Shown here piece after piece: positions 970-59,389 of a stretch of 64,000 nucleotides of DNA. A program made the translations under genes and the position numbers. Every line of letters starts with the position of its first letter. Position 1 is the stretch's first letter. This DNA comes from Lactifluus volemus. Lineage: Eukaryota > Basidiomycota > Agaricomycetes > Russulales > Russulaceae. The notes under the pieces are model-generated. The model was not told the DNA's origin. It saw nothing but the letters and a program-made list of their open reading frames with translations, and ran no database searches. The stretch lies in contig WTXI01000084.1 in assembly GCA_022376515.1 (NCBI GenBank), positions 1-64,000 on the forward strand. Direction: 5' to 3'.

Positions 970-3900
970 TTAGATATCATGATATACTGTAGCCCAATCT
1001 GATCCGTGCACAAAGTTTTCCAGTTCAAGAGAAGTTTCGTATCTGCCTGAAATCCATACGGTGTTAGACCTATGAAAATATGGTCGGTGAACCTGGGGAA
1101 TCCACATAAGAAGTTCTCCCTCTTCCCCACACATCCACCCATCATCACTAACTAGGAACTTGTTCATAAAATCGACCTTCTCAACATCTTCCATTCTGAC
1201 CTTCGCACTAACCGCGTGTTCTTGCAAGGTCGCGGTGCGCTGCAGGTCCGGCGAGAATACAACAGGGTCGACCGGCTTGGTGTATTCAGGAGATGGTCTC
1301 GCTACTGCTCCTGTTGGGGCATCCCATAGGCGAATCGTGTGATCTTCCGAAGCCGAAGCAATGTACCGCCCATCTGGTGAGAATGCAACACAAAGCACCC
1401 GGCCCGTGTGTCCAGTAAATGGGCATGCTATGGCCTCTCCTGTCGCGGAATCCCACACGCGAATCGTGCGATCATATGAGGCTGAGACGATATGTTGACC
1501 GTCGGGGGAGAACGCAACAGAGGGGATCGGGTCTGTATGTCTAGTAAATGGTGCCGCTATCACCTCTCCTGTCGCTGCGTCCCACACGCGAATCGTGTTA
1601 TCTGTCGAGCCTGAGGTGATGTATTTCCCGTCTGGGGAAAATGCAACAGACAAGCCCGAGTGAGTGTGTCCAGTAAACGGGTCTGCGATGGCCTCTCCTT
1701 TTTCAGCATCCCACACACGAATCGTGCGATCTCCAGAGGCCGATGCGATGCGCTTCCCGTCTGGCGAGAATATAACGGAAAAGACCCGCCTAGTGTGGCC
1801 AGTAAACGGGCCCCCAATGACCGCTCCTGTGGCTGCATCCCACATGCGGATGGTGCAGTCATCCGAAGCCGAGGCAATATGCCGCCCGTCTGGCGAGAAT
1901 GCGACTGCGTTAACCTCATCGATGTGTCCAGTAAACGGGCCTGCTGCTACCTCTCCAGTTGCGGCATCCCACACCCGAATCGTGCGATCTTCCGAGGCCG
2001 AGGCAATGCGCTGCCCATATGGAGAGAATGCGACAGAATAAATGCGACCGGCATGTCCAGTAAATGGACCCGCTGCGACATGTCCTGTTATCGCATCCCA
2101 CACGCAAATTTTGTGGTCGGACGAGGCTGAGGCAATGTGCTGGCCATCTGGAGAGAATGCAACAGAGCGGACCCAATGGGTGTGACCGGTAAACGGGTCC
2201 ACTGCTGCTGCATCTGCTCTGGCACCCCACACACGAATCGTGCGATCGAACGAGGCCGATATGATGCGTTGCCCATCAGGAGAGAATGCAACAGAAGTGA
2301 CATGATCGGTGTGACCAATGAACGGGTCCGCTACAACTTTTCCTGTTCCAGAATCCCACACACGAATCGTACAATCGCTTGAGGCAGATGCAATGAGCTG
2401 TCCATCTGGGGAGAAAGCAACAGAGAAGACCCGATCAGTGTGTCCAATAAATGGCCCTACTATGACTTCTCCTGTCGCAGCATCCCATACGTGAACCATG
2501 CAATCTGTCGAGGCCGAGGCGATGAGCTGCCCGTTTGGTGAGAATGCAAACACCCAGACGATATCCGTGTGTCCAGTGAATGGGCCTGCTATAACCTCTC
2601 CTGTGGCGGCATCCCACACGCGAATCGTGCGATCGAATGAGGCTGAGGCGATGCGCTTCCCGTCCGGCGAGAATGCAACACAACGGGCCAATTCAGTGTG
2701 TCCAATAAATGGACCCGCCACGATGGCTCCTTTTCTAACGTCCCATACGCAAATGGTGCCATCACCGGAGGCTGAGGCGATGCGCTCCCCATCCGGGGAG
2801 AATGCGACGGAGTAGACCGCATTTGTGCCGGTGTGTCGAGTCAATGGGCCTGCTACGACGTCTGCTGTTGCGGCATGCCACACCCGAATCGTACCATCCT
2901 CCGAAGCCGAGGCAATGTGCTGCCCGTCAGGAGAGAATGCAACACAGAGGACCAAGTCAGTGTGTCCAGTAAAGGGGCCCACTACGAGCTCCCCCGTTGT
3001 GGCATCCCACACACGAATCGTCCAATCCCGTGAGCCTGAGGCAATGCGCTGTCCGTCTGGTGAGAACGCAACAGAGTCGATTGGTTCTTCATGTGCCTGA
3101 ATCGTCATTTCCAACGCGGGCCAATGAGACAACTGCCCGCGTCCCAAGCACAACGTACGAGGGAATAGATGAAGGTAATGCTTGACGATGTGGGAAGAGG
3201 ATGGTGCGAATGGTAGTGCAGAGATGTAGATATGCGGAGCGCTCCTTGCCATGGCCATCCCAAAGTACCGAACAAACGCGGATGCATCATTCACAATCGC
3301 CAAAAGATTCTCCATAATCTGAGAACCCTGTTGCGATTTATGTAATTGTCACTTTAATGTCAAATTCAATTATAGGATGCACATACCTTCCTCTCGGGCT
3401 GGTCAGACAGCAACCATGTCTTCAGAGACGACAATGCTGGCAAAGCAACGCTCACTTTGCTCTTGATGCTAAGCACTTCTAGCCAAAACAAAAACTTGGT
3501 CTCGAACAGGGATAGAAGTTTCGCGAAGAGATCTTGCTCGAAAGCAACATGTTCTAAGTGGCCGTTCCAGGAAACGCAGGCATACGGTAGTGCAGGAGGG
3601 ATGTGTTTTGAAACTCGAGAGTTAAGGTCTAGGACATCGCTGTTTGCAAGGTATGATGATTCGAGTTCGCAAATGTTAAACTTCAGCTTGTCGAGCATCA
3701 AACCAAGGCAGGAATGTGCCAACTGACGATGAGCATCATCAAGATCCACATAAAACATATCGCTCTTTTTGCTAGTCAGAAAGTCACGGAATGATGTATG
3801 GAGAGGAATGATGCGACGCGTATGGTCGGAGGAAGTCACGTGACTCAGCAATGAGCCGAGGTGACGGAGCATTTCAAGAACAGGATCGGAATCGTCCGCG

Positions 3901-6459
3901 TCGTCGATTGGGGCATGCCGACGCAAGGCAAGCAAGGATTGTATCGAGAGCGGCTCGATTGCAGCAAGAAGTTGTCCCATTACGGAACGAAATAGAATCT
4001 GCGCTTCCTGAGGTAAGAAGTACCCTTCGAGGATTTCTTTGTATAATTTGTCCAACGGATCTTCTCCACTGCAATCTTGAGAGTGTCCCAACAGGCGCTG
4101 GACGCACTTTTTCTTGCTGAAGCCAAAACCAGCAGGAGGGCTATTAATGAACCCGGACGCAGCAGCTGCCCACTGGAACAAGCCCTCTGCGGCCTTTGCT
4201 AGCTCAGCACCATGTTGGTTGAACATGTCCCGAGGGAGTTCCTTCTGAAGATACAACCGAATATCTTGCTCCGTCTTTGCCGCCAGCTGAGTGTCATCCA
4301 TGTATAGCATGTCGACAGATGATGCTTCTGCGAATGAAGGTTCGATACCACCTTCCAGTCGTGAGGTGATGAGTACACGGAACTCCGATGGGAGGTCGAT
4401 GAGACGTTCCGCGAGGAATGTGTGTAACCCGATTTTGCCAGTTGCATCTCCACTTTCATCTAATGCGTCGACGACAATAAGAGCTGGCACAGGAAATGAC
4501 ACGTTCTTCAGTGGTTCAATGAGAAGGGATTCGAAAAGTGTGCGATAATCTCGGGCATTACGGAGAGAAGATCTATCCTTGATGACTCTCCCGAGGGCAT
4601 GTTTGAATGCATGATTTCGATCGGAGAGATCGCGGGCAATTGTCGTAAAGAGTTGGTAAGCGTCGTGCTTGGACTGCTCGCTCCGCAAAAAGGTGAAGTA
4701 TGAGGCGAGACACGTGTCGTCGAACCGACGTGCAACCTCGTGTGCAATCGAAGACTTTCCCGTGCCCGCCTGCCCGAAGAGAATGAGGCCACGTTTAGAC
4801 GACGGATTCTCAATCCACTTGACAATATGGTCCAGGAAATCTTCGCGTGTGCCTGGAAGACAGCGCTTCTCATCTCCGAATCGCCACCCTCCTTTATGAG
4901 GCAATTCTCGGATTTTCGCGTCCAGCTCTGTATTCCCCATGTGAGATCGACCATCCGATCGTGTCACTGTCACAATTACGCACCAGCCTCTATCCCAGTA
5001 ATCTCGGCGACGGCAGCAGCACGGGCAACGAATCTTTCTCGCAGCCGGACGAGATTAGAGCGGTGCTGTTCGATTTTCTCATCAACAGTGCCGACGATAT
5101 TCTTCAAAACCCGTTTGCCTGTAAATCACATGTTAATGATGACCGACGAGACCAAGGGACTAAGATGACATACCAACATTGACGTCCTCCGCATACGATC
5201 TGATGAACTCGGCGCATTCCGAGACGCACTTCAGCATGTCCTCTAGGATTTTGGCTTGGCTAGACTCCGGCCTGATGTGTCTTAACGTGTCGGCCTCTTC
5301 CGCAAATTCGAACGCATCGAGTATTGCCTCAAGTAGTGTTTCGATGTTATCGTCACGCTGAACTTGCTGTATCAAAGCCTGGTGCAAGCAAGGTGAACAA
5401 GGAGTGGAACGAGTCGTGGTTTAGGACAGAACAAGGAGACGCACCTCTGGGATCTTTGACAGCACGCTCCATGCTAGTTTTCCATAAGGGTGAAGCTGAA
5501 CATCAGAAATTAGATCACCACGGAATAACAAAAACGATACTGAGTTTACCTCTGCGATTGTGCCGACAGTATCCATCACCCACTTGACAGAATTGACAGC
5601 ACTTTTCCACGTTTTCATTGTATCGATGTTGTCACAGCTTCCTGAGCACGACGGATCGTGTCACGTGACGTCACCGTCTGGCTTCCTCCTGCTATTGGCT
5701 GCCCAGCAGGACCGCTCTCAACAGGATGCGTAGCGCCTCCTTCCCTGGCTAAATCGGCCGCTGGAGGAATAGGGGTACTGACTACTTCAGAGGGAGAGGA
5801 ATTTGTGTTTGCTGACACGGCGATCGTTAGGAAGGCAGTACGTCCAGCATTTTCACCAGCATTGCCAAGAACGATGTCAAGTTCTTCATGTATGTCGTTC
5901 AGCTAAAAACATCACTAAGAATTCCAAGTAGACGAACCATGTCTGGGTTCGCAGGTAATCTCCTGCCTTCCAATAAGGACGTCGGTCGCCATAGTCCTTT
6001 TCGCATAAAGGATATGGTGATGCGGGAGAGTGGTTGTGCAGCGCTGCAGGAGACTCAGACGCAAATAAGAAGAAGAATAGGATATTCCCCACAATGTATC
6101 GAAGGTCTCGTTCCATTCCACGCGTTGAGCCATGCTCCGCACGGGTCGTGTTTGCCATGTGCGCTCCCCGTAGGCCACAGTAGCATAAAATTGTCTGCCT
6201 TTACCAAGGAGGCGCTTGAGATGGGGAAGGTCTCGCGCTCTGAGAACTAACGAGACAACAGATTTAGTAATTGTCAGAGCGGGATCATAAAGATACTTAC
6301 CGGTCACTCGGATGCTCGGAAGAAGCGAGGTTGGTTGGGTTTCGCTGACCTGATGACTGATGGACCCTACTCCAGCGGTTTGAGAACTGGTCTAAGGCAA
6401 GGACGATTAATAGCGAAGACAAAAGTTTAAGAGTCTGTGACACACAGATTTGGGATCAT
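970..6459 (-). CDS. NLR copy A: C2-like / helical / NACHT / 14 x WD40 (frameshifted)
   Basis: STAND-class NTPase of the fungal NLR type. I placed the start at 6459 because all paralogs begin with a 14-nt first exon (MIPN-) followed by a GTRTGT intron. C2-like exons lie at about 6250-5940, the helical region at about 5820-4980, the NACHT exon at 4927-3387 and the WD40 exon at 3327-970. The NACHT exon shows Walker A GQAGTGKSS and Walker B LIVVDALDES. The WD40 exon has 14 repeats of about 43 aa plus a degenerate fifteenth. The NACHT exon is two codons longer than in the other copies. Relative to B, D and E one base is missing at about 5633/5634 (GTCGAC becomes GTGAC), which shifts the frame in the helical region and predicts a stop a few codons later. 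The rest is intact, so this is either a recent pseudogene or a sequence error. A short C2-only product is possible. Confidence 0.85.
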
Positions 6460-7220
6460 CTTGGGCTGTTCTTAGGTATTGAGATATCTTGCGCAGATTG
6501 AAATATAGGTAAGAAGAAGATTGATGCAACCCTGCACCCTGCCCACGTTTTGCCAAGGCGCTTCTTGGGGACAAACAACACACGCCGTTCCTCGGCCAGG
6601 CACTCCCACACAGAAATGGTACAAGCTTCTCAAATAAAAATATAAGCCATGTTCAATGCCAATTCACGTCGTCAGCCTCAAGTTCCCTCACGTTTTCAGG
6701 ACGAGCGGGTCGAAAATATGACTTGTTTGTAAGAATCCGCCTTCGATCGATGTTTCGGTACTGTCAGGCTGCCCCGTGCATATCAAACTTGCTACTTACA
6801 AGTAAAGTGTAACCTAGCATGGAACTGTAGTGTAAAGGAGAATGGAATATGCAAATTTTTAAGGGAAGCTCGACCACGCGGCGTAATCCAACAGATTCAC
6901 GTTCTCTCAGAGTTCAGAAAGCTTCACGCTGATGCTGATGGATGGCTTGATAGCTAAATTGCCCCACGATCAAGTGAATTTGAAGTACATCGGAGGGAAA
7001 GAATCTCCCATACAAGTATACGAGACAAGGCGATATAATGTTGTTAGCGTAGTCGTTGTGGTATGAAACTTGGGCAAGAGAGGAATGTTGTTATATATGA
7101 ACGAGCGACGACCATGGGCTGAGAATATACGATCGATAAAGAGAGCCCGGGTGAAAAAGAATAACACGCGCATATAATGAAGATAAGGACTACCTAACGC
7201 AGCTGAAGCGGGTCGTTACG
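6460..7220. promoter_or_regulatory. Upstream module of NLR copy A
   Basis: Noncoding. It is homologous to the DNA upstream of B, C, D and F. A conserved block at about 6833-6865 (aaaggagaatggaatatgc, then an A/T-rich run ending aaggg) recurs upstream of B, D and F, with a weaker version upstream of C. A 'tacctaagaaca' element lies just before the start codon. Homology with the other units breaks at about 7185, where a dispersed repeat begins. The promoter role is inferred from position and conservation. Confidence 0.5.
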
Positions 7221-7555: not shown

Positions 7556-7559
7556 CAGC

Positions 7560-11215: not shown

Positions 11216-14200
11216 TTAGATATCATGATATACTGTAGCCCAATCTGATCCGTGCACAAAGTTTGTCAGTTCAAGCCAAGTTTCGTATCTGCCTGCAATC
11301 CATACGGTATTGGGCCTATGAAAATATGGTCGGTGAACCAGGGGAATCCACATAAGAAGTTCTCCCTCTTCCCCACACATCCACCCATCATCATTAACCA
11401 GGAGCTTATTCATAAAATCGACCTTCTCGACACCTTCCATTCTGACCTTATTCGCACTAACCGCGTGATCTTGCGAGGTCGTGAGGTGCTGCAGGTCCGG
11501 CGAGAGTACAACAGGGTCGACTGGTTTGGTGTATTCAGGAGACGGTCTTGCTACTGCTCCTGTTGGGGCATCCCATAGGCGAATCGTGTGATCTTCCGAA
11601 GCCGAAGCAATGTACCGCCCGTCTGGTGAGAATGCAACACAAACCACCTTGCCCCTGTGTCCAGTAAGTGGGCATGCTATGGCCTCTCCTGTCGCGGCAT
11701 CCCACACGCGAATCGTGCGATCGTGCGAGGCTGAGGCGATACGTTGCCCGTCAGGCGAGAACGCAACAGATCTGATCCAATCTGTATGTCCGGTAAATGG
11801 CGCCGCTATGACCTCTCCTGTTGTAGCGTCCCACATGCGAATCGTGTTATCTGCCGACGCCGAGGTGATGTATTTTCCGTCTGGAGAAAATGCAATAGAC
11901 ATGACCGGGTCGGTGTGTCCCGTGAACGGGCCTGCTATGACCTCTCCTGTATCAGCATCCCACACACGAATCGTGCGATCTATCGAGGCCGAGGCGATGC
12001 GTTTCCCGTCCGGCGAGAATGCAACAGAAAGGACTGAATCGGTGTGTCCAGCAAATGGGCCCCCAACGACCGCTCCTGTGGCGGCATCCCACATGCGAAT
12101 GGTGCTGTCATTCGAAGCCGAGGCAATATGCCGCCCGTCTGGCGAGAATGCGACAGACATGACATCATAAGTGTGTCCAGTAAATGGGCCTGCTGCTACC
12201 TCTCCTGTTACGGCATCCCACACCCGAATCGTGTGATCTTCCGAGGCCGAGGCGATGTATTGCCCATCTGGAGAGAATGCAACAGAATAAATGCGACCGC
12301 TGTGTCCAGTAAATGGGCCAGTTGCGACATGTCCCGTTATGGCATCCCACAAGTAAATTGTGTGGTCCAACGAAGCTGAGGCAATGTGCTGGCCATCTGG
12401 TGAGAATGCAACAGCGCAGACCCAACTGGTGTGACCGGAAAATCGGTCTACTATTGGATCTGCTGCAACACCCCACACACGAATGGTATGATCGAACGAG
12501 GCCGATGCGATGCGTTGCCCGTCAGGAGAAAATGCAACTGAAATGGCGTGATCGGTGTGTCCAATAAGTGGGCCTGCTACAACGTTTCCTGTCGCAGAAT
12601 CCCACACACGAATGGTAAAATCGAATGAGGCCGAGGCAATGAGCTGCCCATTTGGAGAGAAAGAAACAGAGTTGACCTGATCGGTGTGTCCAATAAATGG
12701 CCCCACTATGACCTCTCCTGTTGCGGCATGCCACACGTGAATCATGTAATCTGCCGAGGCCGAGGCGATGAGCTGCCCATTTGGTGAGAAAGCAACTACC
12801 TGGACAGGACCAGTGTGTCTAGTGAATGGGCCCGCTACAATGTCTCCTGTGGTGGCATCCCATATACGAATTGTACGATCTGCTGAGGCTGAAGCGATGC
12901 ACTTCCCATCGGGCGAAAAGACAACACAACGGACCAATTCAGTGTGTCCAATAAACGGGCCTGCCATAACGGTTCCGTTTGCGACATCCCATACGCAAAT
13001 GGTGCCATTATGCAAGGCTGAGGCGATGCGCTCCCCGTCCGGAGAGTATGCCACAGAATAGACCGTGCTGGTGTCATTAAACGGACCTGCGAAGATCTCG
13101 CCTGTTGCAGCGTCCCACACCCGAATCGTACCATCTGCCGAGGCTGACGCAATGTGCTGCCCGTCAGGAGAGAATGCAACACAGAGGACCAAGTCAGTGT
13201 GTCCAATAAAGGGGCTTGCTACGAGCTCCCCGGTTGCGGCATCCCACACCCGAATCGTACAGTCGCGCGAGCCCGAGGCAATACGCTGCCCATTTGGCGA
13301 GAACGCAACACAGTCGACTGGTCCTTCGTGTCCATGAATCGTCATTTCCAATGCTGGCCAATGAGACAACTGCCCGCGCGCCAAGCACAGAGTACGAGGG
13401 AATAGATGAAGGTAATGCTTGACGATGTGAGAAGAGGATGGTGCGAATGGTAGTGCAGAGACGTAGATGTGCGGAGCGCTCCTTGCCATGGGCATCCCAA
13501 AGTATCGCACAAATGCGGACGCATCATCTACAAATGCCAACAAGTTCTCGACAGAGTGAGAAGGCTGTGGCGATTTATTGTAATCGTCACTACATGCCAA
13601 TTATAGGATGTACACACCTTCCACTGATCGGACAGCAACCACGCCTTTAGAGACGACAATGCTGGTAAAGCAGCGCTCACTTTGCTCTTGATGCTAAGCA
13701 CTTCTAGCCAAAACAGAAACTTCGTCTCGAATAGGGACCGAACGTTCGCGAGGATGCCTTGTTCCAAGGCAGCATGTTCTAGATGACCGTTCCAGAAAAC
13801 ACAGGAATACGATAGAGCAGGTGGAATGTGTTTGGAAATTCGAGTGTTAAGGTCTAGAACATCACTGTTTGCAAGGTATGATGTCTCGAGTTCGCAAATG
13901 TTGAATTTGAGTTTGTCGAGCATTAAACAAACGCAAGAATGCGCCAACTGACGATGAGCATCGTCAAGGTCCACATAAAACATATCACTCTTCTTGCTAG
14001 TAAGAAAGTCACGGAATGATGTATGAAGAGGAATGATGGGACGAGTATGATCTGATGAAGTCACATGGCTCAGCAGTGAGCCGAGGTGATGGAGCATTTC
14101 AACCACAGGATCGGAATCCTCGGCGTCATCGATTGGGGCATATCGACGCAAGGCGATTAAGGATTGTATCGAGAGCGGCTCGATTGCAGCAAGAAGATGT

Positions 14201-16652
14201 CCCATCACGGACCGAAATAGAATCTGTGCTTCATGCGGTAAGAAGTACCCTTCGAGGATTTCTACGTATAATTTATCCAACGGATCTTGTCCATGGTGAT
14301 CTCGAAATTGTCCTAACAGACGCTGTATACACTTCTTCTTGCTGAACCCGAAAATAGCAGGAGGTCGATTTATGAATCCGGATGCAACCGCGGCCCACTG
14401 GAATAAGCCCTCTGCTGCCTTTGCAAGCTCGGCGCCATGGTCTTGGAACAGGTCCCGAGGGAGCTTCTTCTCAAGATACAGGCTAATATCTTGCTCCGTC
14501 TTGGCAGCCAGTTTCGCATCGTCCATGTAAAACGTGTCAACAGATAATGCCGCTGCGAATGCAGGTTCGATACCATCTTCCAGCCTCGAGGTCATGAGTA
14601 CGCGGAACTCCGGTGGGAGATCGATGAGATGTTCCGCGAGGAATGAGTGTAACCCGATGTCTCCGATTGCATCCCCACTCTCATCCAATGCGTCGATGAT
14701 GATGAGAGTCGGACCTGGAAGAGGCATGCTCCTAAGCGGCTCAAGGAGGAGGGATTCAAAAAGTGTAGGATAATCTCTGGTAGCGCGAAGGGAAGATTTA
14801 TCCTTGACGACCCTCCCAAGGGCATGTTTGAACGCAAGATTTCGATCGGAGAGATCGCGGGCAATTGTCGTAAAGAGTTGGTAAGCGTCGTGCTTGGACT
14901 GCTCGCTCCGCAAGAAAGTGAAGTAAGAAGCAAGACAGCTGTCGTCGAAGCGACGTGCAATCTCATGTGCAATCGAAGACTTTCCCGTGCCAGCCTGCCC
15001 GAGGAGTATAAGCCCGCGTTGAGACTCCGGATTCTCAATCCACTTGACAATATGATCCAGGAAATCTTCGCGTGTGCCTGGAAGACAGCGCTTCTCATCT
15101 CCGAATCGCCACCCTCCTTTATAAGGCAATTCTCTGATTATTGCACCGAGTTCTGAGTCCCCCGAATCCCCTTATTAGATCGACCGTCCAATGATTGTGT
15201 GATTACCAGATTTACGCACCAGCCTCCATCACAGTAACCTCGGTGATGACAGCAGCACGGGCCAGGAAACGTTCTCGCAGTAGGATGAGGTTGGAGCGGT
15301 GCTGTTCAATTTTTTCATCAACAGGGCCGACAACATTCTTCAAAACCCGTTTTCCTGTATATCACAGGTGAATAATGACTAATTAGAGAGAGACCAAGAC
15401 GACATACCAACTTTAACGTCCTCCGCATACGAACTGATATACTCGGCGCATTCCGAGACAGACTTCAGCATGTCCTCTAGGATATTGGCTTGACTAGAAT
15501 TTGGCTTGAGATCCCTTAATGTATCGGCCTCTTCTGCAAATTTAAACGCATCGAGTATTGCCTCAAGTAGTGTTTGGATGTTATCGTCGCGCTGGACTTG
15601 CTGTAGCAAAGCCTGGCGACATGGTGAACAAGAATAAGTGGAATGACCCATGCTCCGGGAAAAGAAGACGAGACGGACCTCGGGGATCTTTGAGAGCATG
15701 CTCCATGCCAGTTTTGCGCACGGGTTCAGCTGAACGACGGAAATTAGAGGACGAATTAACAAAAAGGGATACTGTGCATACTTCTGCAATTTGACTGACA
15801 GTGTCCATCACCCACTTGACAGCAGTAATAACATCTTTCCACGTTTTCATCGTATCGATGTTGTCGACAGCTTTTTGGGCACGACGGATGATGTCACGTG
15901 ACACCCCAGGGCTTCCTGCTAAATTATTTACCGCCATCAGTATCGCTCATATTGGGAAGGAGATTCGGGCGCGCAGCACCTTCAGTAACAATATTTAGGA
16001 ATACTGTAGTCTGCTCCGGTGTACTATGTCTAGCATCTCTTCCAGCATTGCGGAGAACAATATCAAGTTCTTTGTGCAGGACGTTCAGCCAAAAACATCA
16101 CTAAGAATTCGAAGAAATAGACGAACCGTCTCGGGGTTCACAGGTAATATCCTGCTGTCCAATAAGGATGTCCGTCCCCATAACCTTTTTCGCATAAAGA
16201 GATATCGTGATATGGGAGGATGGTTGTACAGCGCTGCGAGAGAATCAGTTGTATGTGGAGACAAACAAACGATATTTCCCACAATGTGTCGACTTTCTCG
16301 TTCCATTCCACGCGTTGAGTCGCGCTCCGAACAGATCGTGTCTGCCATTTTCTCTCCCCGAAGGTAACAGTAGCATAGAATCGTCTATCTTTATTAAGGA
16401 GGCCCTTGAGATGGGGAAGATTGTGTGCCCTGAGGACTGACATGCCAAAAATGTTTAGTAATTGTCAGAGTAAAGTCATAAAGATACGTACCAGTCACTC
16501 GGAGAGGAAGCGATCTTGGTTGTGTTTCGCTGAGCTCAGCGTGACTGCCAGTGATGGACCCTACTCCAGCGCTTTGAGAACCTAGGCTAAGATAATAATT
16601 AATAGCTAAGACATAAAGTGTTAGAAACCCAGACATACATATTTGGGATCAT
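11216..16652 (-). CDS. NLR copy B: C2-like / helical / NACHT / 14 x WD40, intact
   Basis: Full-length family member. The start at 16652 gives MIPN then a GTATGT intron. The C2-like exon reads VLRAHNLPHLKG...RRFYATVTF...VEWNEKVDT, and the second C2 half follows a CTGATT...CAG intron. The helical region contains SRDIIRRAQKAVDNIDTMK, an LNPCAKLAWSMLSKIPE exon and a VQRDDNIQTLLEAI exon. The NACHT exon 13618-15152 (1,535 nt, the same length as in C, D and E) has Walker A GQAGTGKSS and Walker B LIIIDALDES. A GTGTGT...CACAG intron leads to the WD40 exon 11216-13564, with 14 repeats (GH-x3-V-x-AFSPDG...IRVWDA...). The linker after C2 is removed by a 61-nt intron containing TACTGAT. No frame break was found. 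Confidence 0.9.
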
Positions 16653-19181: not shown

Positions 19182-22100
19182 TTAGATATCTTGATAAACT
19201 GTAGCCCAATTTGATCCATGCACAAAGTTTTCCAGTTCAAGCCAAGTTTCGTAGCTGCCTGCAATCCAGACGGTGTTGGACCTATGAAAATATGGTCGGT
19301 GAACCTGGGGAATCCACATAACAAGTTCCCCCTCGTCCCCACACATCCACCCATCATCATTAACTAGGAGCTTGTTCATAAAATCGACCTTCTCAACATC
19401 TTCCATTCTGACCTTCGCGTGATCTTGCGAGGTCGCGATGCACTGCAGGTCCGGCGAGAATATAACAGGGTCGACCGATTTGGTGTATTCAGGAAGTGGC
19501 CTTGCTTCCGCTCCCGTTGGCGCATCCCATAGGCGAATCGTGATATCTTTCGAAGCCGAAGCAATGTACCGCCCGTCTGGTGAGAATGCAACACAAAGCA
19601 CCCCACCCGTGTGTCCGGTAAATGGGCTTGCTATGGCCTCGCCTGTCGTGGAATTCCACACCCGAATCGTGCGATCGTTCGAGGCTGAGGCGATACGTTG
19701 CCCGTCAGGCGAGAAGGCAACAGATCTGATCCAATCTGTATGTCCGGTAAATGGTGCTGCTACAACCTCTCCTGTTGCAGCGTCCCAAACACGAATCGTG
19801 TTATCTGCCGAGCCCGAGGTGATGTATTTCCCGTCTGGAGAAAATGCAACAGACAAGACCGACCGAGTGTGCCCAGTAAACGGGCCTGCTATGACCTCTC
19901 CTTTCTCAGCATCCCACACACGAATCGTGAGATCGTGAGAACCCGAGGCGATGCGTTTCCCGTCCGGCGAGAAAGCAACACACAGGACTAAATCGGTGTG
20001 TCCAACAAATGGGCGCACAACGACCACTCCTGTGGTGGCATCCGACATGCGAATAGTGCGGTCATGTGAAGCTGAGGCAATATGCCGTCCGTCTGGCGAG
20101 AATGCGATAGACATGATTTTATTAGTGTGTCCAGTGAATGGGCCTGCTGCTATCTCTCCCGTTACGGCATCCCACACCCGAATCGTGCGATCTTCCGAAG
20201 CCGAGGCAATGCGCTGTCCATTTGAAGAGAATGCAACAGAAAAAATGCGATTGGTGTGTCCAGTAAGTGGGCCCGCTGCGACCTGTCCTGTTATGGCATC
20301 CCACAGGTATATTGTATGGTCATAAGAGGCTGAGGCAATGCGCTGGCCATCGGGTGAGAAAGCAACAGCGTAGATCCAATTGGTGTGACCGGGAAATCGG
20401 TCTACTACTGCATCTGCTGTGACACCCCACACACGAATCGTGCGATCGAACGAGGCCGATGCGATGCGTTGCCTGTCCGGAGAGAATGCAACAGAAAGGA
20501 CATAATCGATGTGTCCAATAAACGGTCTTGCTACAACGTGTCCTGTAGCAGAATTCCACACACGAATCGTACAATCGAATGAGGACGAGGCAATGAGCTG
20601 CCCATCTGGGGAGAAAGCAACAGAGTAGACGTGATCGGTGTGTCCAATGAATGGCCCCACTATGACTTCTCCAGTTGCAGCATCCCATACGTGAATCGTG
20701 CGATCGGCCGAGGCCGAGGCGATGAGCTGCCCGTCAGGCGAGAAAGAGACCGAGTAGACACGATCTGTATGTCTAGTGAACGGGCCCGCTACAATGTCTC
20801 CCGTGGTAGCACCCCATACACGAATTGTTCGATCTCCAGAGGCTGAGGCGATGCGCTTCCCGTCCGGCGAGAAGACGACACCATGTACCCATCTAGTGTG
20901 TCCAATAAAGGGATCTGCCACAAGGGTTCCTTTTGCAACATCCCATACGCAAATGGTGCCATCGTGCAAGGCCGAGGCGATGCGCTCCCCGTCTGGCGAG
21001 AATGCCACAGAATAGACACGGCCGGTGTGATTAGTAAACGGGCCTGCGAAGATCTCGCCTGTGGCAGTATCCCATACTCGAATCGTACCATCCCTCGAGC
21101 CCGAGGCGATGTGTTGTCCACCAGGAGAGAATGCAACACACTGGATATCTGCTGTGTGTCCAGTAAATGGGCCCGCTACGAGTTCCCCTGTTGTAGCATC
21201 CCACACCCGAATAGTGCAATCCCGCGAGCCTGAGGCAATGCGCTGTCCATCTGGCGAGAACGCAACAGAGTAGACGGGTCCATCATGTCCATGAATCGTC
21301 ATTTCCAATGGCGGCCAATGAGACAACTGTCCGCGTCCAAGGCACAAGGTACGAGGAAATAGACGAAGGTAATGCTTGACGATGGGGGAAGAGGATGGTG
21401 CGAATGGTAGCGCAGAGATATAGATATGCGGAGCGCTCCTTGCCATGGGCATCCCAAAGTACCGCACGAATGCGGACGCGTCATTCACAAATGCCAAAAA
21501 CGTCTCTACAGTTTGAGAAGCCCGCTGAGATTTTTTGGAATCGTCACTATATGTCATTAAATTATAGGATGTACATACCTTCCCCTGGTCAGACCGCAAC
21601 CATGTCTTCAGAGATGACAATGCTGGTAGAGCGACGCTCACTTTGCTCTTGATGCTAAGCACTTCTAGCCAAAACAGAAACTTCGTCTCGAACAGGGATC
21701 GAAATTTCGCGGAGAGGTCTTGCTCGAAGGTAACATGTTCTAAGTGGCCTTTCCAGGAAACGCAGGAATACGATAGAGCAGGAGGAATGTGTTTGGAAAT
21801 TCGAGTGTTAAGGTCTTGGACATCGCTGTTTGCAAGGTATGATGTCTCGAGTTCGCAGATGTTAAACTTTAGCTTGTCGAGCATCAAACTAACGCAGGAA
21901 TGCGACAACTGACGATGGGCATTGTCAAGGTCCACATAAAACATATCACTCTTCTTGCTAGTCAGAAAGTCACGGAATGACGTATGGAGAGGAATGATGG
22001 GACGCGAATGATCCGATGAAGTCACGTGACTCAGCAATGAGCCGAGGTGATGGAGCATTTCAAGAACAGCATCGGAATCCTCGGCGTCGTCAATGGGGGC

Positions 22101-34250: not shown

Positions 34251-34903
34251 CCAATAAATAATCCAAGAAGAAGATCAATCACACAAGCTCCCTTATCAAA
34301 TCTAATCACGCAGTTTTATCTATCTCCTGCTAAAGGCGAGCCTCTGTTTCTTTGTTATCAAATCCTACTTCCCCGGCCCTTTGGAGCCGGTGGAATGGCA
34401 TAGATTGGATCCCTTAAGGGGATTTCCCACGAGCGGCGCGACGGCGCGGCGACGCTAAGCACGCGAGTATTCCATCCGGGCCGGTGCGCGATTAGATAGT
34501 AAATTACTTAGCCCGGGGAAACGGACGCGAGATCGCTGCAAAGCATCCGCGGACGAGCCGGATGCGGCCTTACAGCCATGATAGGAAACCGGGTGGGAGG
34601 CCCCGGGGACTATTTGCCCACTGAACGGTTGGCCGATGACTCCCGCGCGGGGCACGGTTTTTGGGTCTAGAACAAGGCGGGGGTAATCACTCCCTGAGCG
34701 CTTGGGCTCGTCACAACTGCGGTGCGCTAATCTAGGTTAGAGATAGTCCATAGATCATCGCGCGCAGGCTCCGGAGGACTGGATCTTTGATTCAGGGGTT
34801 ACAGTCCGATATGCCAGGGATAGATCGGATCTTCGATCCTGGGTCTGACAGCTCCTCTTACCCAGATAATCAAATCGTCGCACAATCATAATCTTATCGC
34901 AGT

Positions 34904-38986: not shown

Positions 38987-39013
38987 TCTAGGAATGTCTT
39001 AATCACGGGGAGA

Positions 39014-39464
39014 TGTTGAGACGGGCCGGTAGCGCGGGAACATTCCCGGGCAGTACGGACAGTGTCACGGACCGGATCTAACCGGTCCAAGCGTACAATG
39101 TAGATATTCGTAGATAATTGATTAATACATTCTTTACCATTGTGCACGCTCCCTATTCTCTCAGAAAGGACAATGATGGCATTATGTTTATTGTACATCT
39201 ATTGTATGAGGCCCTAGGCCAATGCACGCTCCTTCTATGTATTTAAAGGACATTTCCCAGCTGCTATCACTTCAGTCTCTTACACATCGACTGAAGTGAG
39301 TATTACGATTACATCATCTTTTACCTTATTTGGACTCACGCGACTTTTACTTAGCGCTATCTTATCTAGGTAAATTATGATTATGAAATACAGTCTCTTA
39401 CACATCGACTGAACGCTATCTTATCTAGCGTTATCTAATCTACCTCAGCCGCTGCTTTTCATCA
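39014..39464 (+). repeat. Right LTR (451 bp)
   Basis: Same start and end as the left LTR, preceded by the purine-rich tract acggggaga. It contains 80 extra bases between two copies of tgcacgctcc (starting near 39141 and 39222); the left LTR has only one copy. The remaining 371 bases look identical by eye. Confidence 0.93.
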
Positions 39465-42696: not shown

Positions 42697-42722
42697 ATGC
42701 TCCCTTCGGGGATGCATACGAA

Positions 42723-42753
<31 letters not shown>

Positions 42754-42818
42754 GGCCCCTGCACAAGGATGACACGCTGTTTCAGAGTGGTAGACCTACG
42801 GGTCTCAATATTTATTTT
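42697..42818 (+). ncRNA. U6: U6 spliceosomal snRNA
   Basis: The central core is unmistakable: AAAATTGGAACGATACAGAG, AGATTAGCATGGCCCCTGC and AAGGATGACACGC cover the 5' splice-site binding ACAGAG box, the AGC triad and the internal stem-loop. The 5' end folds as ATGC-TCCC-TTCG-GGGA-(T)-GCAT, a bulged stem with UUCG loop typical of U6. After GACACGC the 3' part differs from the usual form: it carries a further hairpin (AGACC-TACG-GGTCT, 42792-42805) before the T6 terminator at 42815-42820. 3' end inferred from the T run. Confidence 0.9.
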
Positions 42819-43612: not shown

Positions 43613-46600
43613 TCAAGTGCTAAACGTCAACGTAACGTCGCGAATCCTCAACTGCACGCTGCGTTCAGCCGTCCATTCGAAATGCACATTTTCGAGAGAT
43701 TCTTCAAGCGTCATTACACCTGACAGCCATGAGAGCTGGTCAGCAGATTTCCGAGGAGATGCCGTAATCGAGGGTAAACTTACCCGCATCGCCAACGTTG
43801 AAGTTGAGGGACTTGAATGGTTCAGAACGCCCGTGCCCCTGTCGAGGTGGGGCACCCGGATAAAAGAAGCTTGAAAAGCTGCTGCCGACTTTCCAGACAA
43901 GGACTGCCCCTTCCTCTAGGGAAACCGTCACCAGCCGCCGTCCATCGGGCGAGAAACTGCACGCCGCAAGCGCCTGTTTGTGACACTCCAACACGTACAG
44001 GCGCGTAGCAGTTTTTAGGTCATACATGACAATTGCACCCTCGCTCGTACCCACGGCTAGGCGCTGGCTGGCCATGTGGAAGTCGACTGTGGGGAAACTT
44101 CGCAGGTAAAACCTATCAGTAAGTTCGCCCTCCGACGTGAGAGCAGTTGAGCGTACGTTTTCACGACATGTCCGAGAATCTCCGTCGCTGTGTCTTGGAC
44201 GGCATCCCGGTTCGATGTGGAGTTTGGGTCCAAAGATTTCACTACCGCTTCCACGAGTTTGGGAAGATTAGGATGAATGACAAGAGGTTTCTTGGCGAAT
44301 ATCAGCGAAGAGAAACAGTGATGTAGACCACAAACTTTGCGAATGAGGAAAGCTACAAGCTGCATCACGGACTTTCTATGCTCTAGACTCTGCGGGTGCA
44401 GTATATCGAGCGAAAGCGTGGTCATGAATATCCCCGTATTGCTGGACACAATTTGTTGGACCGCATGTCGAGCTTGCGGCCCGATATTTTGAGCAGTTAT
44501 GCTCTCTTTTTTTGTGCTGGTAGCAAGGCCGAAAAGACATCGTAGCATCTCCATGGCGTCGATGTAGTGTTGCCAAACACTGAACCCGCGGGAACAAAGG
44601 TCGATCGCCAATGCTTTGCAGGACACGTCACTTTCGTGAAGGCACATCATCACGGATTTCGATATTATATTAAGAGCACTTCCGATGGCAGAAGTTCTAT
44701 CAGAATACCCTCAACACCGGAGGAAAAGAAACGGCACCTTGGAGAAAGTAAACCATGTTGGCCAGCGGCAATAAATCCGCAGAGAAGCAAAGCTTTTGAG
44801 GCGGCGGGTGACTTTTTTTCCGGGTCCGGGAGTAAGAAGGGTACTATTTGGTTGCCCGAAGTCGGTTGTCAAAGCCACGCGCGGCATATAGCTAGGGCCT
44901 TACAAGAATGTTGCCACCGTCCCACCAGCGAAATTTTCTCCTCATCCGTTAGGGAATCTACTCCGGCGTCGAAAAGCAACCTCGCTGCCAGCCGCACCTC
45001 ATCTGAAAACAACAGGAGCAAAGTCAGTCGCAACCAAAGTAAATTACTGTAGTACGCCATACTGGAGACATCGAACCACCACTTGGCAAGAAAAGACAGA
45101 CTAGGGGGCACATACGCTCTTCCCACTGCATGGGAGAGGGATTTAACATAGAAAGTGATGACTGTATTGACGTGTTCTGCGGTATCTGAAGGGGAATTTA
45201 TTGGCGGCGACCTAGGGTCCGCGAGGGACTCACTCTCGAAGTGCGTCAAAACCCGTAGACAAGCTACCAAGGCCAGCGCTCTGGAGGCAGACACTTCTCC
45301 TGAAACGCACCAGGAGCTTTGTGGGCTCTCCGATACAATCAGGGAGCTTGCATCTTTACTAAGTCTCAGAAGTCAGAGCGTATGCTTGAGTTTCAAGGCG
45401 ATACAGATGCATACCTATGGAACCCAACAGACGCATGTGTCATCGGAAGTCCCAGTTGTTCTTTGCAAATGGTGTCTATGTCGGGATTAAGCCCGGGGGT
45501 GAGAAGAACCTGCAAAAGAGAGCGCAAAACCCCAGCGGTCCGCTCACGAGACTTGGTCTCATCAGCGGCTGAAGATTTTGAGATGGATATTGCCCGGGTC
45601 AGGAACGATTCTAGATTCACCAATATTGTCGGGGCTTCCATTTTACCGCATTAGCCTTGCTCTCTAAATGCATCAGAAGAGAGAAGGAACATACATGAGT
45701 CAGGAGTAGATACCGAGAACGTGGTTGGTGTATTGCCCGCTGAAAGCAAATCGTGAAGTGACCTGCTCAAGGAATTGAGCTTGGGTACGGCATGTAGCGC
45801 AGAAAGTGACAGACAAATCTGTCCAGCCACCCTGGCTTAGCAGTTCTTTCGCCTTCTCGATGTTCATAGACCGCCAGAACTCCAGAGTCTTGACATCCCA
45901 TATCCGCGCCCGATCATCCGCATACAAAAGAAGGAGGTTGTCTCCACTGATACAAGCCCTAGACAGTGCCGCTGGGGCACCAGGAACCATGTAAAGGCTG
46001 ACGGCGTTGAATGTGGTTATTCTGAGATCATGGCTGGAGACGCCTCACAGTTGGTAATCATCTAAAGCGATGACGGCAATTGTTCCATCTCCGGATATGC
46101 AAAGCACGCATCCCTTCAATGGACCGCCTTTGTCGTATCGCAGATAAAGGACATGCTGGAGTGGCGAGGTAAACAGGATCCATCTCGCCAATGTCTTCAT
46201 CAGTCTGGAGCGGTGACCATCAGGCGACAGTTAGATATTCCTTGAAACTGGTCTCACTCTAACGACCATATCGCCACAGACCCGTCATCGGCACCACCAA
46301 CGACGAGCCTTTCCCCTGTTCGGTCGTTTTGAATGATGTGTAAGCCCACGATGGGGCCATCCAATGGAATATCCGACATGTCTCCGGGTACCAGATTCGA
46401 CTTTATCTGAACGAGATCAGCGAAGGATGACCGACCGATCGTTCCATCACCTGCAGCGTGGTAATCAGCAACGTGTCAAAGTAAAGGAATATGTTGAGAT
46501 AACATACTGTACCCAAGGATAATGTGCGTGAGCTCCAATGGGAGCATGCACGTAATGCGTCGGTCATCGTCAGCGACCCTTTTCTCCTTGTTATATGATT

Positions 46601-53890: not shown

Positions 53891-53981
53891 CTGCCGGGGC
53901 AGACGGTGTTGCCTCTTCCTTTTTGCCTATAATTCAATCTGCGAAGGCGAAAGACATTTCAATAGCTAAGAACACTCCTCG
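53891..53981 (+). promoter_or_regulatory. Proximal promoter / 5' leader of copy E
   Basis: Shares with copy A the run 'cctata-ttcaatctgcg' and 'taagaaca' just before the ATG, but homology ends about 90 bases upstream. The aaaggagaat block common to the minus-strand copies was not found in the preceding 500 bases. Confidence 0.45.
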
Positions 53982-56900
53982 ATGATCCCAGATCCGTATG
54001 TCGGTGTCTCTCACACTTATGTCTTCACTACTAACTATTACCTTAGCCAAGGTTCTCAAAGCCCCGGACTCCGAGTAGGGACTATCAGTCGCGATCAAGT
54101 CAGCGAAACACAACTAAGCTCGCTTCCTCTTCAGGTGACTGGTACGTATCCTTATAATTCCGCTTTGATGGTTACTAAATTTTTCTGGTTAGTCCTCAAG
54201 GCGCACAATCTTCCCCGTCTCAAGAGTCTCCTTGGCAAAGACAAGCGATTTTATGTTACCGTGACCTACAGGGAGAGAATATGGAAGACACGACCCGTGC
54301 GGAGCGCGACTCAACGGGTGGAATGGAACGAGAAAGTTGACACATTGTGAGAAATATAGTGTTTTTGTCTCCACATGCAACTGATTCTTCTGCAGCGCTG
54401 TACAATCATCCTCCTATATCATCATATCTCTTTATGCGAAAAGGCATATGGGGGTGGACATCCTTATTGGAAAGCAGGAGATTACCTGTGATCTCCAAGA
54501 AGGTTCGTCTATTTCTTGGAATGCCCGTAATGTTCTTACTGAACGTCCTGCACGAAGAACTTGTTATTATTCTCGGCAAAGCTGGAGGAGAAGCTGGACA
54601 TAATACACCGGAGCCGGTCACAGTATTCCTAAGGATTGTTACTGAAGGTGCTGCGCGTCCCAATCTCCTTCTCAAGTACTGAATTGCCTACTCAACAGAG
54701 ACGTCACGTGATAAGATCGGTCGTGCTCAGAAAGCTGTCGACAACATCGATACGATGAAAACGTGGAAAAATGCTGTGAATGCCGTCAAGTGGGTGATGG
54801 ATACTGTCAGCTCAATCGCAGAAGTAAACACAGTATCGTTTTTGTGAATTCGTCCTGATCTAACTTGTGATGTTCAGCTGAACCCCTATGCAAAACTAGC
54901 ATGGAGCATGCTCTCAAAGATCCCCGAGGTGCGTCTCCTTGTTCTGTCTCAGGACATGACTCATTCCACTCCTTGTTCACCTTGCCTGCGCCAGGCATTG
55001 CTACGGCAAGTTCAGCGTGACGATAACATCGAAACACTACTTGAGACAATACTCGATGCGTTCGAATTTGCGGAAGATGCCGACGCGTTAAGAGACATCA
55101 GGCCAGAGTCTAGGCAAGCGAAAATTCTAGAGGACATGCTGAAATGCGTGTCGGAGTGCGCCGAGTTTATCAGTTCGTATGCGGAAGACGTCAAAGTTGG
55201 TATGTCATCTCGGTCTCTCGGTCTCATCGGTCATTATTAACATGCGATTAACAGGAAAACGGGTTTTGAAGAATATTGTCGGCCCTGTTGACGAGAAAAT
55301 CGAACAGCACCGCTCCAACCTCGTCTTACTGCGAGAACGTTTCCTTGCCCGTGCTGTTGTCATCACCGAGGTTACTGTGGTAGAAGCCGGTGCGTAATTA
55401 TGAGTGTAACACGATCGCTGGACGATCGATCTCATAAAGGACACAGAACTCAATGCAATAATCAGAGAATTGCCTCATAAGGGAGGCTGGCGATTCGGAG
55501 ATGAGAAGCGCTGTCTTCCAGGCACACGCGAAGATTTCCTGGACCATATTGTCAAGTGGATCCAGAATCCGAAATCTAAACGTGGCCTCGTTCTCTTCGG
55601 GCAGGCTGGCACGGGAAAGTCTTCAATTGCACATGAGGTTGCACGTCGGTTCGATGACATCTGTCTCGCCTCGTACTTCACCTTTTTGCGGAGCGAGCAG
55701 TCCAAGCACGACGCTTACCAGCTCTTCACGACGATTGCCCGCGATCTCTCCGATCGCAATCTTGCGTTCAAACACGCCCTCGGGAGAGTCATCAAGGATA
55801 AATCTTCTCTCCGTAATGCCCGAGATTATCGCACACTTTTCGAATCCTTCCTCATTGAACCGCTGAAGAACGGTTCGCCCCCTTTTCCGGCTCTTATTGT
55901 CATCGACGCGTTGGATGAGAGTGGAGATGCAACTGGCAAAATCGGATTACACACCTTTCTCGCCAAACATATTGCCGACCTCCCATCAGCGTTCCGTGTA
56001 CTTATCACCTCACGGCTGGAAGATGGCATTGAACCGGCATTCGCAGAAGCATCATCTGTCGACATACTCTACATGGATGACACTCAACTGGCGGCCAAGA
56101 CGGAGCAAGATATTCTGTTGTATCTTCAGAAGGAACTCCCTCGGGACATGTTCAACCAACATGGTGCTGAGCTAGCAAAGGCAGCAGAGGGCTTGTTCCA
56201 GTGGGCAGCCGCTGCATCTGGGTTCATAGACAGCCCTCCTGCTAGTCTTGGCTTCAGCAAGAAAAAGTGTGTACAGCGCCTGCTAGGACACTCTCAAGAT
56301 CGCAGTGGACAAGATCCGTTGGACAAATTATACAAGGAAATTCTCGAAGGGTACTTCTTACCTCAAGAAGCGCAGATTCTATTTCGTTCCGTTATGGGAC
56401 AGATTCTTGCTGCAATCGAACCGCTCTCCATACATTCCTTAATCGCCTTGCGTCGACATTCCGCAATTGACGACGCCGAAGATTCCGATCCTGTTTTTGA
56501 AATGCTCCGTCACCTCGGCTCATTGCTGAGTAATGTGACTTCATCCGACCATACGCGCCCCATCATTCCTCTCCATACATCATTCCGTGACTTTCTGACG
56601 AGCAAGAAGAGTGTCATGTTTTATGTGGACCTTGACGATTCCCATCGTCAGTTGGCACATTCCTGCCTTGGTTTGATGCTCGACAAGCTGAAGTTTAACA
56701 TTTGCGAACTCGAGTCATCATACCTTGCGAACAGTGATGTCCTAGACATCAACTCTCGAATTTCCAAAAACATCCCTCCTGCTCTATCGTATGCATGCGT
56801 TTTATGGAACGGCCATTTAGAACATGTTTCTTTTGAGCAAGACCTCTTCGCGAAAGTTCGATCCCTGTTCGAGACGAAGTTTCTGTTTTGGCTAGAAGTG

Positions 56901-59389
56901 CTTAGCATCAAGAGCAAAGTGAGCGTTGCTTTACCAGCATTATCGACTGTGAACACATGGTTGCTGTCTGGCCAGTGGAAGGTATGTACATCTTATAATT
57001 GAATATGACATGTCGCAATGATTCCATAAAATTTCAACAGACTTCTCAAGCTGTGGAGAATTTGTTGGCGATTGTGGATGATGCGTCCTCGTTTGTGCGG
57101 TACTTTGGGATGGCCATTGCAAGGAGCGCTCCGCATATCTACATATCTGCACTACCATTTGGCCCATCCTCTTCCCACATCGTCAAGCACTACCGTCCTC
57201 TATTCCCTCGTGCGTTGTGCTTGGGACGCGGGCAGTTGTCTCATTGGCCAGGTTTGGAAATGACGATTCATGGACATGAAGCAATCGACTCTGTTGCATT
57301 CTCACCAGACGGACACACCATTGCCTCAGGCTCGCGGGATTGCATGATTCGAGTGTGGGATGCCACAACTGGGGAGGTTGTAGCAGGCCCATTTATTGGA
57401 CACACTGACTGTATCGCCTCGGTTGTATTCTCTCCTGACGGGCAGCACATCGCCTCGGGCTCGAGGGATGGTACGATCCGGGTGTGGGATGCTGCAATAG
57501 GCGAGATCTTCGCAGGCCCGTTTACTAGTCACGCCGGCGAGGTCTATTCTGTGGCATACTCGCCGGACGGGGAGCGCATCGCATCGGCCTTGATCGATGG
57601 CACCATTTGCGTATGGGATGTTTCAAAAGGAACCGTCGTGGCAAGTCCGTTTACTGGACACACAGCATGGGCCAGTTGTGTTGCATTCTCGCCGGACGGG
57701 AAGCGCATCGTCTCAGCCTCAGGAGATTGCACAATTCGGGTGTGGGATGCCACCACAGGAGAGGTTGTAGCGGGACCGTTCACTAGACACACCGATTGCG
57801 TCCACGTGGTAGCTTTCTCACCAAACGGGGAGCTCATCGCCTCGGCTTCGACGGATTTCATGATCCACGTGTGGGATGCCGCAACAGGAGAAGTCATAGT
57901 GGGGCCATTTATTGGACACACCGATGAGGTCTACTCTGTTGCATTTTCCCCAGATGGGCAGCTCATTGCCTCGGCCTCATTCGATTATACCATTCGGGTG
58001 TGGGATTCTGCAACGGGAGACGTTGTAGCAGGCCCGTTTATTGGACACACCGATCGGGTCCTTTCTATTGCATTCTCCCCTGACGGGAAACGCATCACGT
58101 CAGGCTCGTTCGACCATACGATTCGTGTGTGGGGCACCGCAGCGGATGTGGCAGTGGACCCATTTATTGGCCACATCAATGGGGTCCGTGCTGTTGCATT
58201 CTCACCAGATGGCCAGCGCATTGCCTCAGCTTCGTACGACCAAACAATTTACCTGCGGGATGCCACAACAGGACAGGTTGCAGCGGGCCCATTTACTGGA
58301 CACAGCAATCGCATTTATTCTGTTGCATTCTCTTCAGATGGGCAGCGCATTGCTTCGGCATCCGATGATTGCACAATTCGAGTATGGGATGCCGCAACAG
58401 GAAATATAGCCGCAGGCCCGTTTACTGGACACAGCGGTGCAGTCTCGTCTGTCTCATTCTCGCCAGACGGGCGGCATATTGTTTCGGCGTCAGCTGATTG
58501 CACCATTCGCATGTGGGACGCCACAACAGGAGCGGTCGTTGTGGACCCGTTTACTGGACACACTGAATGCGTCAGTTGTGCTGTATTCTCGCCGGACGGG
58601 AAGCGCATCGCCTCGGCCTCTCAAGACCACACGGTTCGTGCGTGGGACGCTGTGACAGGAGAGGCCATAGCAGACCCGTTTATTGGACACACTCAGCTGG
58701 TCATATCTGTTGCATTTTCTCCAGATGGGAGGCACATCGCTTCGGCCTCGGGAGATTGCACGATTCGGATATGGGATGCCGCAACAGGAGAGGCCATACT
58801 TGCCCCATTCATTGGACATAAAGGTTGGATCACATCTGTTGCGTTCTCGCCTGACGGACATCGTGTCGCCTCGGCCTCATTCGATCGCACGGTTCGCATG
58901 TGGAATTGCGCGACAGGAGAAACCATTGCACGCCCATTTACTGGACACACGGATCGGGTAAATTGTGTTACATTCTCACCAGATGGGCGATACATTGCTT
59001 CGGCTTCGGAAGATCACACGATTCGCCTATGGGATGTCCCGACGGGAGCGGTAGCAAGATCGTTTCCTGAATACACCAAATCGGTCGACCTTGTTGTATT
59101 CTCGCCGGACCTGCAGCACATCGCGGCCTCACAAGATCACACGTTTAGTGCGAAGAAGGTCAGAATTGAAGATGTTGAGAGGATGGATTTTATGAACAAA
59201 TTCCCAATTAAAGATGATGGGTGGATGTGTGGGGAAGAGGGTGAACTTCTGATGTGGATTCCCCAGATTCACCGACCGTATTTCCATAGGTCTTACACTG
59301 TTTGGATTGCAGGAAGATACGAAACTTGGCTTGAACTGGAAAACTTTGTTCACGGATCAAATTGGGCTACAGTATGTCATGACATTTAG
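53982..59389 (+). CDS. NLR copy E: C2-like / helical / NACHT / 14 x WD40, intact, inverted
   Basis: Best-resolved copy. Eleven exons: 53982-53995, 54047-54141, 54193-54346, 54396-54502, 54558-54647, 54699-54823, 54878-54928, 54995-55199, 55255-55389, 55447-56981, 57041-59389; 4,860 nt, 1,619 aa. C2-like domain about residues 37-125, helical region about 150-325, NACHT about 360-835 (Walker A GQAGTGKSS near 377, Walker B LIVIDALDES), WD40 about 915-1510 with 14 repeats, then a conserved tail (GWMCGEEGELLMWIP). The C2 loops lack the usual Ca-binding Asp cluster. NACHT is closest to copy A; the early WD40 repeats are closest to B and C. Only about 90 bases upstream of the ATG resemble the other copies. 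Confidence 0.93.

Follow-up and report, generated by a model that had tools for sequence, protein, structure and literature searches.

Diversification of NOD-like receptors (NLRs) by exchange is already known from plants and from the repeats of Podospora anserina. In the Podospora HNWD genes, positive selection was found at repeat codons 7, 9, 25 and 27, placed around the conserved codons 8 and 26 (PMC1805685), and the repeats are shuffled as units mainly within a gene and more rarely between genes (PMC2873952). HET-E has been modelled with two seven-bladed propellers, and slightly conflicting trees were obtained for the NACHT part versus HET plus the start of the WD40 part (PMC12222747 for both). 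The HET domain is reported to be absent from basidiomycete NLRs (PMC9815663), and NACHT-type NLRs with an N-terminal C2 domain have been reported in a few basidiomycetes (PMC4986451). Among 272 NLR clusters of Sordariales, which comprise two to five genes, 16 consist of paralogous copies, and diversification by exchange was suggested (PMC12258605); plant NLR families such as RPP8 use duplication and exchange between copies as a source of diversity (PMC6771003). Here we analyze five NLR genes within a 64-kb stretch of Lactifluus volemus DNA (the window: positions 1-64000 of contig C612, in a genome assembly of 62.4 Mb and 628 contigs), whose NACHT and WD40 parts carry conflicting histories. The best overall explanation, to which we assign a probability of about 0.8, is that these NLR copies exchange DNA in register, which yields mosaic genes together with diversification of the sensor face and likely produces new receptors.

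In each copy, a short intron separates the NACHT part from the WD40 part. According to the open reading frames (ORFs), A to D run on the minus strand, whereas E is encoded on the plus strand:

970 to 6460, minus strand: copy A, with upstream (C2-type) exons from about 6460, the NACHT exon at about 4938-3387, the intron at about 3386-3328 and the WD40 exon running to a stop at 970 (ORFs, Pfam and alignment; upstream exons by homology to E).
11216 to 16650, minus strand: copy B, with upstream exons, the NACHT exon at about 15166-13620 and the WD40 exon running to a stop at 11216 (ORFs, alignment).
19182 to 24730, minus strand: copy C, with NACHT and WD40 within a single open frame of 1319 amino acids (ORFs, Pfam, alignment).
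27500 to 32908, minus strand: copy D, the clearest mosaic among the five (ORFs, tract scan, trees).
53981 to 59389, plus strand: copy E, inverted relative to A-D (ORFs, alignment).
54072 to 54520, plus strand: C2-domain exons of copy E, with introns at 54142-54192 and 54347-54395 (splice model and Pfam).

Pfam places NPHP3_N and NACHT above cut-off in copy A and finds 14 WD40 stretches in copy A and 14 in copy C, as well as 14 in P0001 and P0007, while an exact string check found the Walker motifs GQAGTGKSS and DALDESG intact in 5/5 copies. The genes start about 1.5 kb upstream of the NACHT exon, as indicated by proteins of relatives that align to the upstream exons of E. The spliced-protein C2 scan covered copy E, to which the upstream exons of A-D were aligned, and identified the N terminus of spliced E as a C2 domain (Pfam E = 5.4e-9, 36.6 bits, cut-off 22); Pfam matched no HET domain at this N terminus. 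Protein relatives with up to 59% identity occur in Phlegmacium, Lactifluus, Hebeloma and other Agaricomycetes, and at least 77 NACHT matches were scored in the genome, out of 1150 first-look candidates. The copies in the window are thus most likely part of a large set of fungal NLR genes (signal transduction ATPases with numerous domains, STAND) of Agaricomycete type, with a predicted architecture that most likely comprises a C2 domain, a linker, a NACHT ATPase switch and, as sensor, fourteen WD40 repeats arranged as two seven-bladed propellers. In copy C the NACHT-WD40 intron (about 21520-21578) has no stop, keeps the frame and reads through, so that unspliced RNA would still encode the full NACHT-WD40 protein.

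In the alignment of the five copies, long runs of sites set A and E against B, C and D in the NACHT core (tract T1), and runs uniting A and D mark the WD40 exon from its start through about four repeats (tract T2):

4053 to 4613, minus strand: T1 in copy A, A/E class.
55761 to 56321, plus strand: T1 in copy E, A/E class.
14278 to 14838, minus strand: T1 in copy B, B/C/D class.
22239 to 22799, minus strand: T1 in copy C, B/C/D class.
30565 to 31125, minus strand: T1 in copy D, B/C/D class.
2581 to 3297, minus strand: T2 in copy A, A/D class.
29099 to 29815, minus strand: T2 in copy D, A/D class, 95.3% identical to A as against 84.2% elsewhere.

T1 and T2 reject each other's trees. Among the 15 trees compared, the best one lacking A+E was worse by 129 log-likelihood units (lnL) in T1, and the best one lacking A+D was worse by 52 lnL in T2. 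The pairwise homoplasy index (PHI) test gave P = 0.0002, which is the floor of 5000 shuffles, and a pairwise tract scan on all sites put 6/10 pairs at the permutation floor of 0.0005. Separate trees of the two exons conflict as well, with A+E in the NACHT exon tree and A+D in the WD40 exon tree. A first-pass annotation had proposed, from shared amino acid strings, that the two modules group differently; the conflicting tracts show that they do so beyond chance, and recombination or gene conversion between the paralogs, which it had put forward as the cause, is strongly supported by the tracts and the tree conflict.

An exact check of those strings confirmed 14 of 15, or 15 of 16 statements if the derived NACHT versus WD40 grouping is counted. 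All five NACHT strings assigned to A and E are confined to these copies, as are the four WD40 strings assigned to A and D, and TIHGH and EIFAGPF occur solely in the WD40 parts of B, C and E; among the four NACHT strings assigned to B, C and D, three are exact and LEKKLPRDLF is found in B and D only, C reading FEKKLPRDLF. Four of the five A/E strings lie inside T1, with ELPHKGGW (A 4907-4884) upstream of it, and three of the four A/D strings lie inside T2, with VWGARAD (A 2232-2212) downstream. TIHGH and EIFAGPF represent the state without the A/D tract.

Other parts of copies A and D bear on the composition of the array:

31443 to 32195, minus strand: 5′ exons of D matching E (54693-55445) at 90% (D-E in the scan, 91.0% versus 83.4% elsewhere).
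970 to 1465, minus strand: 3′ end of A common to B (about 11216-11714), 93.0% versus 83.2% elsewhere.
31171 to 31218, minus strand: short NACHT stretch of D (FAFLRK), unlike A, B, C and E.

Copy D combines at least three sources, namely E-like 5′ exons (91.0%), a B/C-like NACHT core and A-like first repeats. Its FAFLRK stretch is 60-62% identical to A, B, C and E in a 40-column window and 75-85% identical to the distant paralogs L009, L011, L028 and L029; it appears more like these distant paralogs and is too short for its origin to be assigned. For this comparison, 29 loci (L002-L030) were scanned for one motif and seven were compared with the NACHT exon of D.

The composition of D recurs outside the window. 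Beside the five copies, we aligned and tested eight of the 77 relatives (D1, C1, A1, E1, X367, D2, C2 and A2; copy C2 is a gene and not the domain), and the pair statistics cover 12 of these 13 copies, E1 being left out as nearly identical to E. Contigs C166 and C279 carry collinear D-C-A blocks, and contig C180 carries E. D1 and D2 resemble B and C in T1 (91.2-92.9% identity, versus 81.1-82.7% with A and E) and A in T2 (93.7-94.4%, versus 83.0-85.1% with B, C and E). In 13-copy trees, the likelihood falls by 194 lnL if the D copies are placed with A in T1, and by 186 lnL if they are placed with B and C in T2. The description of D as a B/C-type NACHT with an A-type sensor thus applies to the NACHT core and to the start of the sensor, about four repeats, and does so again in D1 and D2, but not to the rest of the sensor. 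In the D copies, T2 is flanked by D-type 5′ exons and by a D-type 3′ end and downstream flank common to the three contigs, which gives the picture of conversion. The best protein match of D2 starts at residue 112 and a TGA was noted, so that frame damage is possible. In these four contigs, divergence climbs steeply across the receptor block: on E's side, C612 and C180 agree at 98%, whereas the D-C-A blocks of C166 and C279 match the window at about 88-94%, and their D-C intergenic region does so at 82-87%.

Larger parts have changed partners too. Synonymous distance between A and A2 is 0.182 in NACHT and 0.422 in the WD40 array, and between A2 and B it is 0.478 and 0.180, which makes A2 an A-type NACHT switch with a B-type sensor; the values for A and X367, 0.415 and 0.177, make X367 a non-A switch with an A-type sensor. 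Between copies C1 and C2, identity is 98% as far as the first WD40 repeat and 87% from there on (synonymous distance 0.062 in NACHT, 0.263 in the WD40 array). Their change point is at alignment column 3971 on all sites (interval 3850-3975), beside the start of the first repeat at column 3973, and at column 3870 (3831-3975) on third positions. After its stop, copy C2 enters B's downstream flank (87.9% over 1780 columns); C1 likewise is followed by B's downstream region and then by A1, and both sister blocks hold one gene fewer than the window. The join in copy C2, together with the missing gene, looks like the outcome of unequal crossing over between C and B; alternatively, the lineage of the window may have gained a gene.

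The position of the C1-C2 change point can be cited for a cassette system, in which paralogs or sister haplotypes would donate a complete double-propeller sensor, in register, to a C2-NACHT chassis that stays put, crossovers falling preferentially between the NACHT end and the first WD40 repeat. We consider this version doubtful, though it deserves mention. With the NACHT-WD40 intron at columns of about 3682-3747, the third-position change point of A-X367 is at 3801 (3774-3861), and that of A2 lies inside the 3′ half of the NACHT exon, at 3033 (2928-3234) versus A and 3390 (3384-3564) versus B. Third-position change points were significant in 29/66 pairs; seven of the intervals overlap the intron and six overlap the first-repeat start, and only 7 of the 29 change points fall between columns 3400 and 4110, which counts against a preferred zone. 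On all sites, 51/66 pairs show change points beyond their own 200 shuffles, a figure confounded by faster amino acid change in the sensor. A breakpoint hotspot at the junction was also considered and rejected: donor switches become more frequent within the WD40 array, but the lower similarity of the donors in that region means that the increase is no evidence.

The sensor repeats reveal both the mode of exchange and the selection acting on its products. The fourteen repeats align in 12/12 copies compared, their number being fixed. Repeats at the same position in different genes are 84.8% identical in DNA, and repeats within a gene 67.4% on average over the 12 copies (61% in amino acids within D). 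None of the 168 repeats in these copies has its nearest relative at another position, showing that recent exchange took place in register. A structure model of the D sensor (mean predicted local distance difference test, pLDDT, 74.5; predicted template modelling score, pTM, 0.45; ends 1-85 and 684-795 poor) contains two propellers matching seven-bladed chains at residues 83-385 and 395-691; sequence and fold searches of the PDB returned many propellers, including Apaf-1, and were uninformative on specificity. Repeat positions 4, 6, 22 and 24, matched to the Podospora codons by their spacing and by the conserved residues in between, together have a ratio of nonsynonymous to synonymous differences (pN/pS) of 1.47 (1.24-1.71), compared with 0.32 at the other 39 positions and 0.23 in the NACHT exon. 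Selection thus diversifies some four residues in each repeat, on what is presumed to be the binding face. These rates bear on the possibility that the exchange is real but neutral, tandem arrays being homogenised among genes with a non-immune role. Conversion is expected between tandem copies whatever their role, and the immune role is one that we infer here; however, pN/pS above 1 at the four presumed face positions, with low values elsewhere, and an architecture that is that of fungal NLRs argue against neutrality, which we regard as unlikely.

Misjoined reads of near-identical paralogs could in principle create mosaics as well. The assembly, with its 628 contigs and copies that are 85-99% alike, contains redundant contigs: the end of C473 repeats C166/D1, E's NACHT exon in the window has a 100% match on C319, and a window stretch outside the receptors is present three times (C612, C319 and C180). 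Chimeras could still account for joins seen on one contig (A2, X367 and copy C2). Against such an origin of the mosaics, the T1/T2 composition of D is found on C612, C166 and C279 and that of E on C612 and C180, and the divergence of 5-18% between the joined parts greatly exceeds read error, so that an assembly origin is improbable as a general explanation.

The first-pass annotation had placed one exchange at the NACHT-WD40 intron and had taken D and E for reciprocal recombinants. This form agrees with the two exon trees and with the 5′ edge of the A-D tract, placed about 30 bp beyond the intron by all sites and about 95 bp beyond it by third positions. For E, the claim is right about the NACHT core (T1), which is 89.5% identical to A versus 79.3-81.8% to B, C and D, but not about a B/C-type sensor start: in T2, E is 85.0, 84.4, 84.6 and 84.0% identical to A, B, C and D, respectively, and silent-site tracts at the WD40 start gave P 0.052 for E-C and 0.148 for E-B. 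This equidistance refutes the reciprocal form. Moreover, the signal of A+E versus B+C+D stops inside the NACHT exon, about 666 bp before the intron, the likeness of C and D extends further, to about 120-190 bp before it, no tree is resolved between T1 and T2 (including the intron), and T2 ends after about four repeats. With further tracts elsewhere, breakpoints are many, only the 5′ edge of the A-D tract lying close to the intron, and a single exchange there is very improbable.

Slightly less credible still, and refuted by the tract pattern as observed, is a single tree for the whole gene, with the shared residues being retained ancestral states or resulting from unequal rates. Outside T1 and T2, the gene is mostly star-like, with no tree resolved, and scattered shared residues such as VWGARAD could be old states there. 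Besides the mutual rejection of trees in T1 and T2, silent sites speak against retention: the synonymous distance of A and D is 0.67 in T1 and drops to 0.07 in T2 only, and that among B, C and D is 0.13-0.17 in T1. Unequal protein constraint cannot lower synonymous distance, and such local drops indicate tracts rather than slow sites. In 200 recombination-free simulations, a rough control as they gave fewer informative sites (mean 190) than the data (410), the largest A+E block reached 18 sites versus 58 observed and the largest A+D block 8 versus 30, thus failing to yield the observed blocks. Convergent protein selection making A and D or A and E alike can be set aside as next to impossible, because even if a sensor under diversifying selection may share some amino acids by chance or selection, the tracts are present on third codon positions alone (5/10 pairs, AB, AD, BC, BD and CD, at P 0.0005, with A-E short of significance at P 0.0975 because its likeness spans a long stretch and not one tract) and extend over hundreds of bases at 93-95% DNA identity.

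Several observations weigh against in-register exchange with sensor-face diversification as the full explanation. In nine relatives from other species, the own window position is the best match in only 0-4 of the 14 repeats each, and within-protein repeat identity exceeds same-position identity to the window in eight of the nine, with one tie, in a cross-species register taken from a single MAFFT alignment, which may be shifted by whole repeats. Since the repeats of other species are not position-true, in-register exchange would not be the rule over longer times, and older homogenisation of units is likely. Position 24 alone has a pN/pS of 0.88, and position 3, outside the four of Podospora, has 1.19. 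The sister contigs may represent either alleles or copies of a segment. Given the redundant contigs (C473/C166 and C319), single joins such as that of copy C2 could be assembly errors. Conversion and crossing over are distinguished solely by flanks, and the direction of exchange is not polarised.

Based on exchange in register, we propose the following model. Copies on the same and on sister contigs have traded DNA in register; some exchanges left internal tracts of a few hundred bases, as expected from gene conversion (T1 and T2), and copy C2, a one-sided join with a gene missing, may stem from unequal crossing over. The C2-NACHT part of one lineage is thereby joined to the sensor, or to part of the sensor, of another. 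By analogy with fungal NLRs, binding of a ligand to the propeller face might lead NACHT to switch and oligomerise, and the C2 domain might act at membranes, resulting in defence or cell death. Exchange would place new sensors on working switches, making new recognition types, and point changes would then tune the face; the receptors may in this way serve non-self recognition.

The window holds other features. A young copia-type long terminal repeat (LTR) retrotransposon with open gag and pol ORFs lies between D and E (33862-39464), and repeats of 242 and 139 nt are identical between both its ends. A U6 spliceosomal RNA gene is found at 42699-42815 (Rfam RF00026, 86 bits). At 43740-44267, on the minus strand, a separate ORF has a weak WD40-type match and does not align with the receptors. 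For the stretch at 59729-60557, the same genome contains dozens of relatives (67-74%), a large number of which lie on contig C101; the ORF tested in this stretch gave no Pfam match.

Our literature search, in which subscription papers were thinly covered, found no account of in-register NACHT/WD40 exchange in a basidiomycete. Set against the described systems, the locus differs in belonging to a C2 family of basidiomycetes, in its constant number of repeats, in exchanging DNA in register and in its swapped sensors. NLR repertoires of fungi are both large and variable, and here exchange can be read directly, as the same switch carries different sensors on sister contigs; such trading of pieces between paralogs is a likely route to new receptors, and the array offers natural chassis/sensor chimeras for asking which part sets specificity. 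As far as the available portions of the reports extend, the basidiomycete C2-type candidates (PMC4986451) are alike in their N-terminal C2 domain and differ in that no exchange between paralogs is described there, and the Sordariales genes are likewise clustered, while the exchange itself is visible here in a paralogous cluster. Plant NLRs of the RPP8 type differ in having leucine-rich repeat (LRR) sensors, and we claim no common origin of the sensors. With the HNWD/NWD genes of Podospora (het-d, het-e and het-r), the locus shares the pairing of a NACHT switch and a WD40 sensor, four diversifying codons in each repeat at the same spacing and, in a model made here for copy D, a probable double seven-bladed propeller. 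In contrast, HET is replaced here by a C2 domain (copy E), repeats within a gene are 67% alike rather than over 80-85%, their number is fourteen in each compared copy rather than variable, and they cluster by position (0/168 exceptions) and not by gene, in keeping with recent in-register exchange between genes here and, in Podospora, shuffling of units mainly within genes. The sensor positions that evolve fast in Podospora are thus also fast in a family of basidiomycetes whose N-terminal domain and mode of exchange are different.

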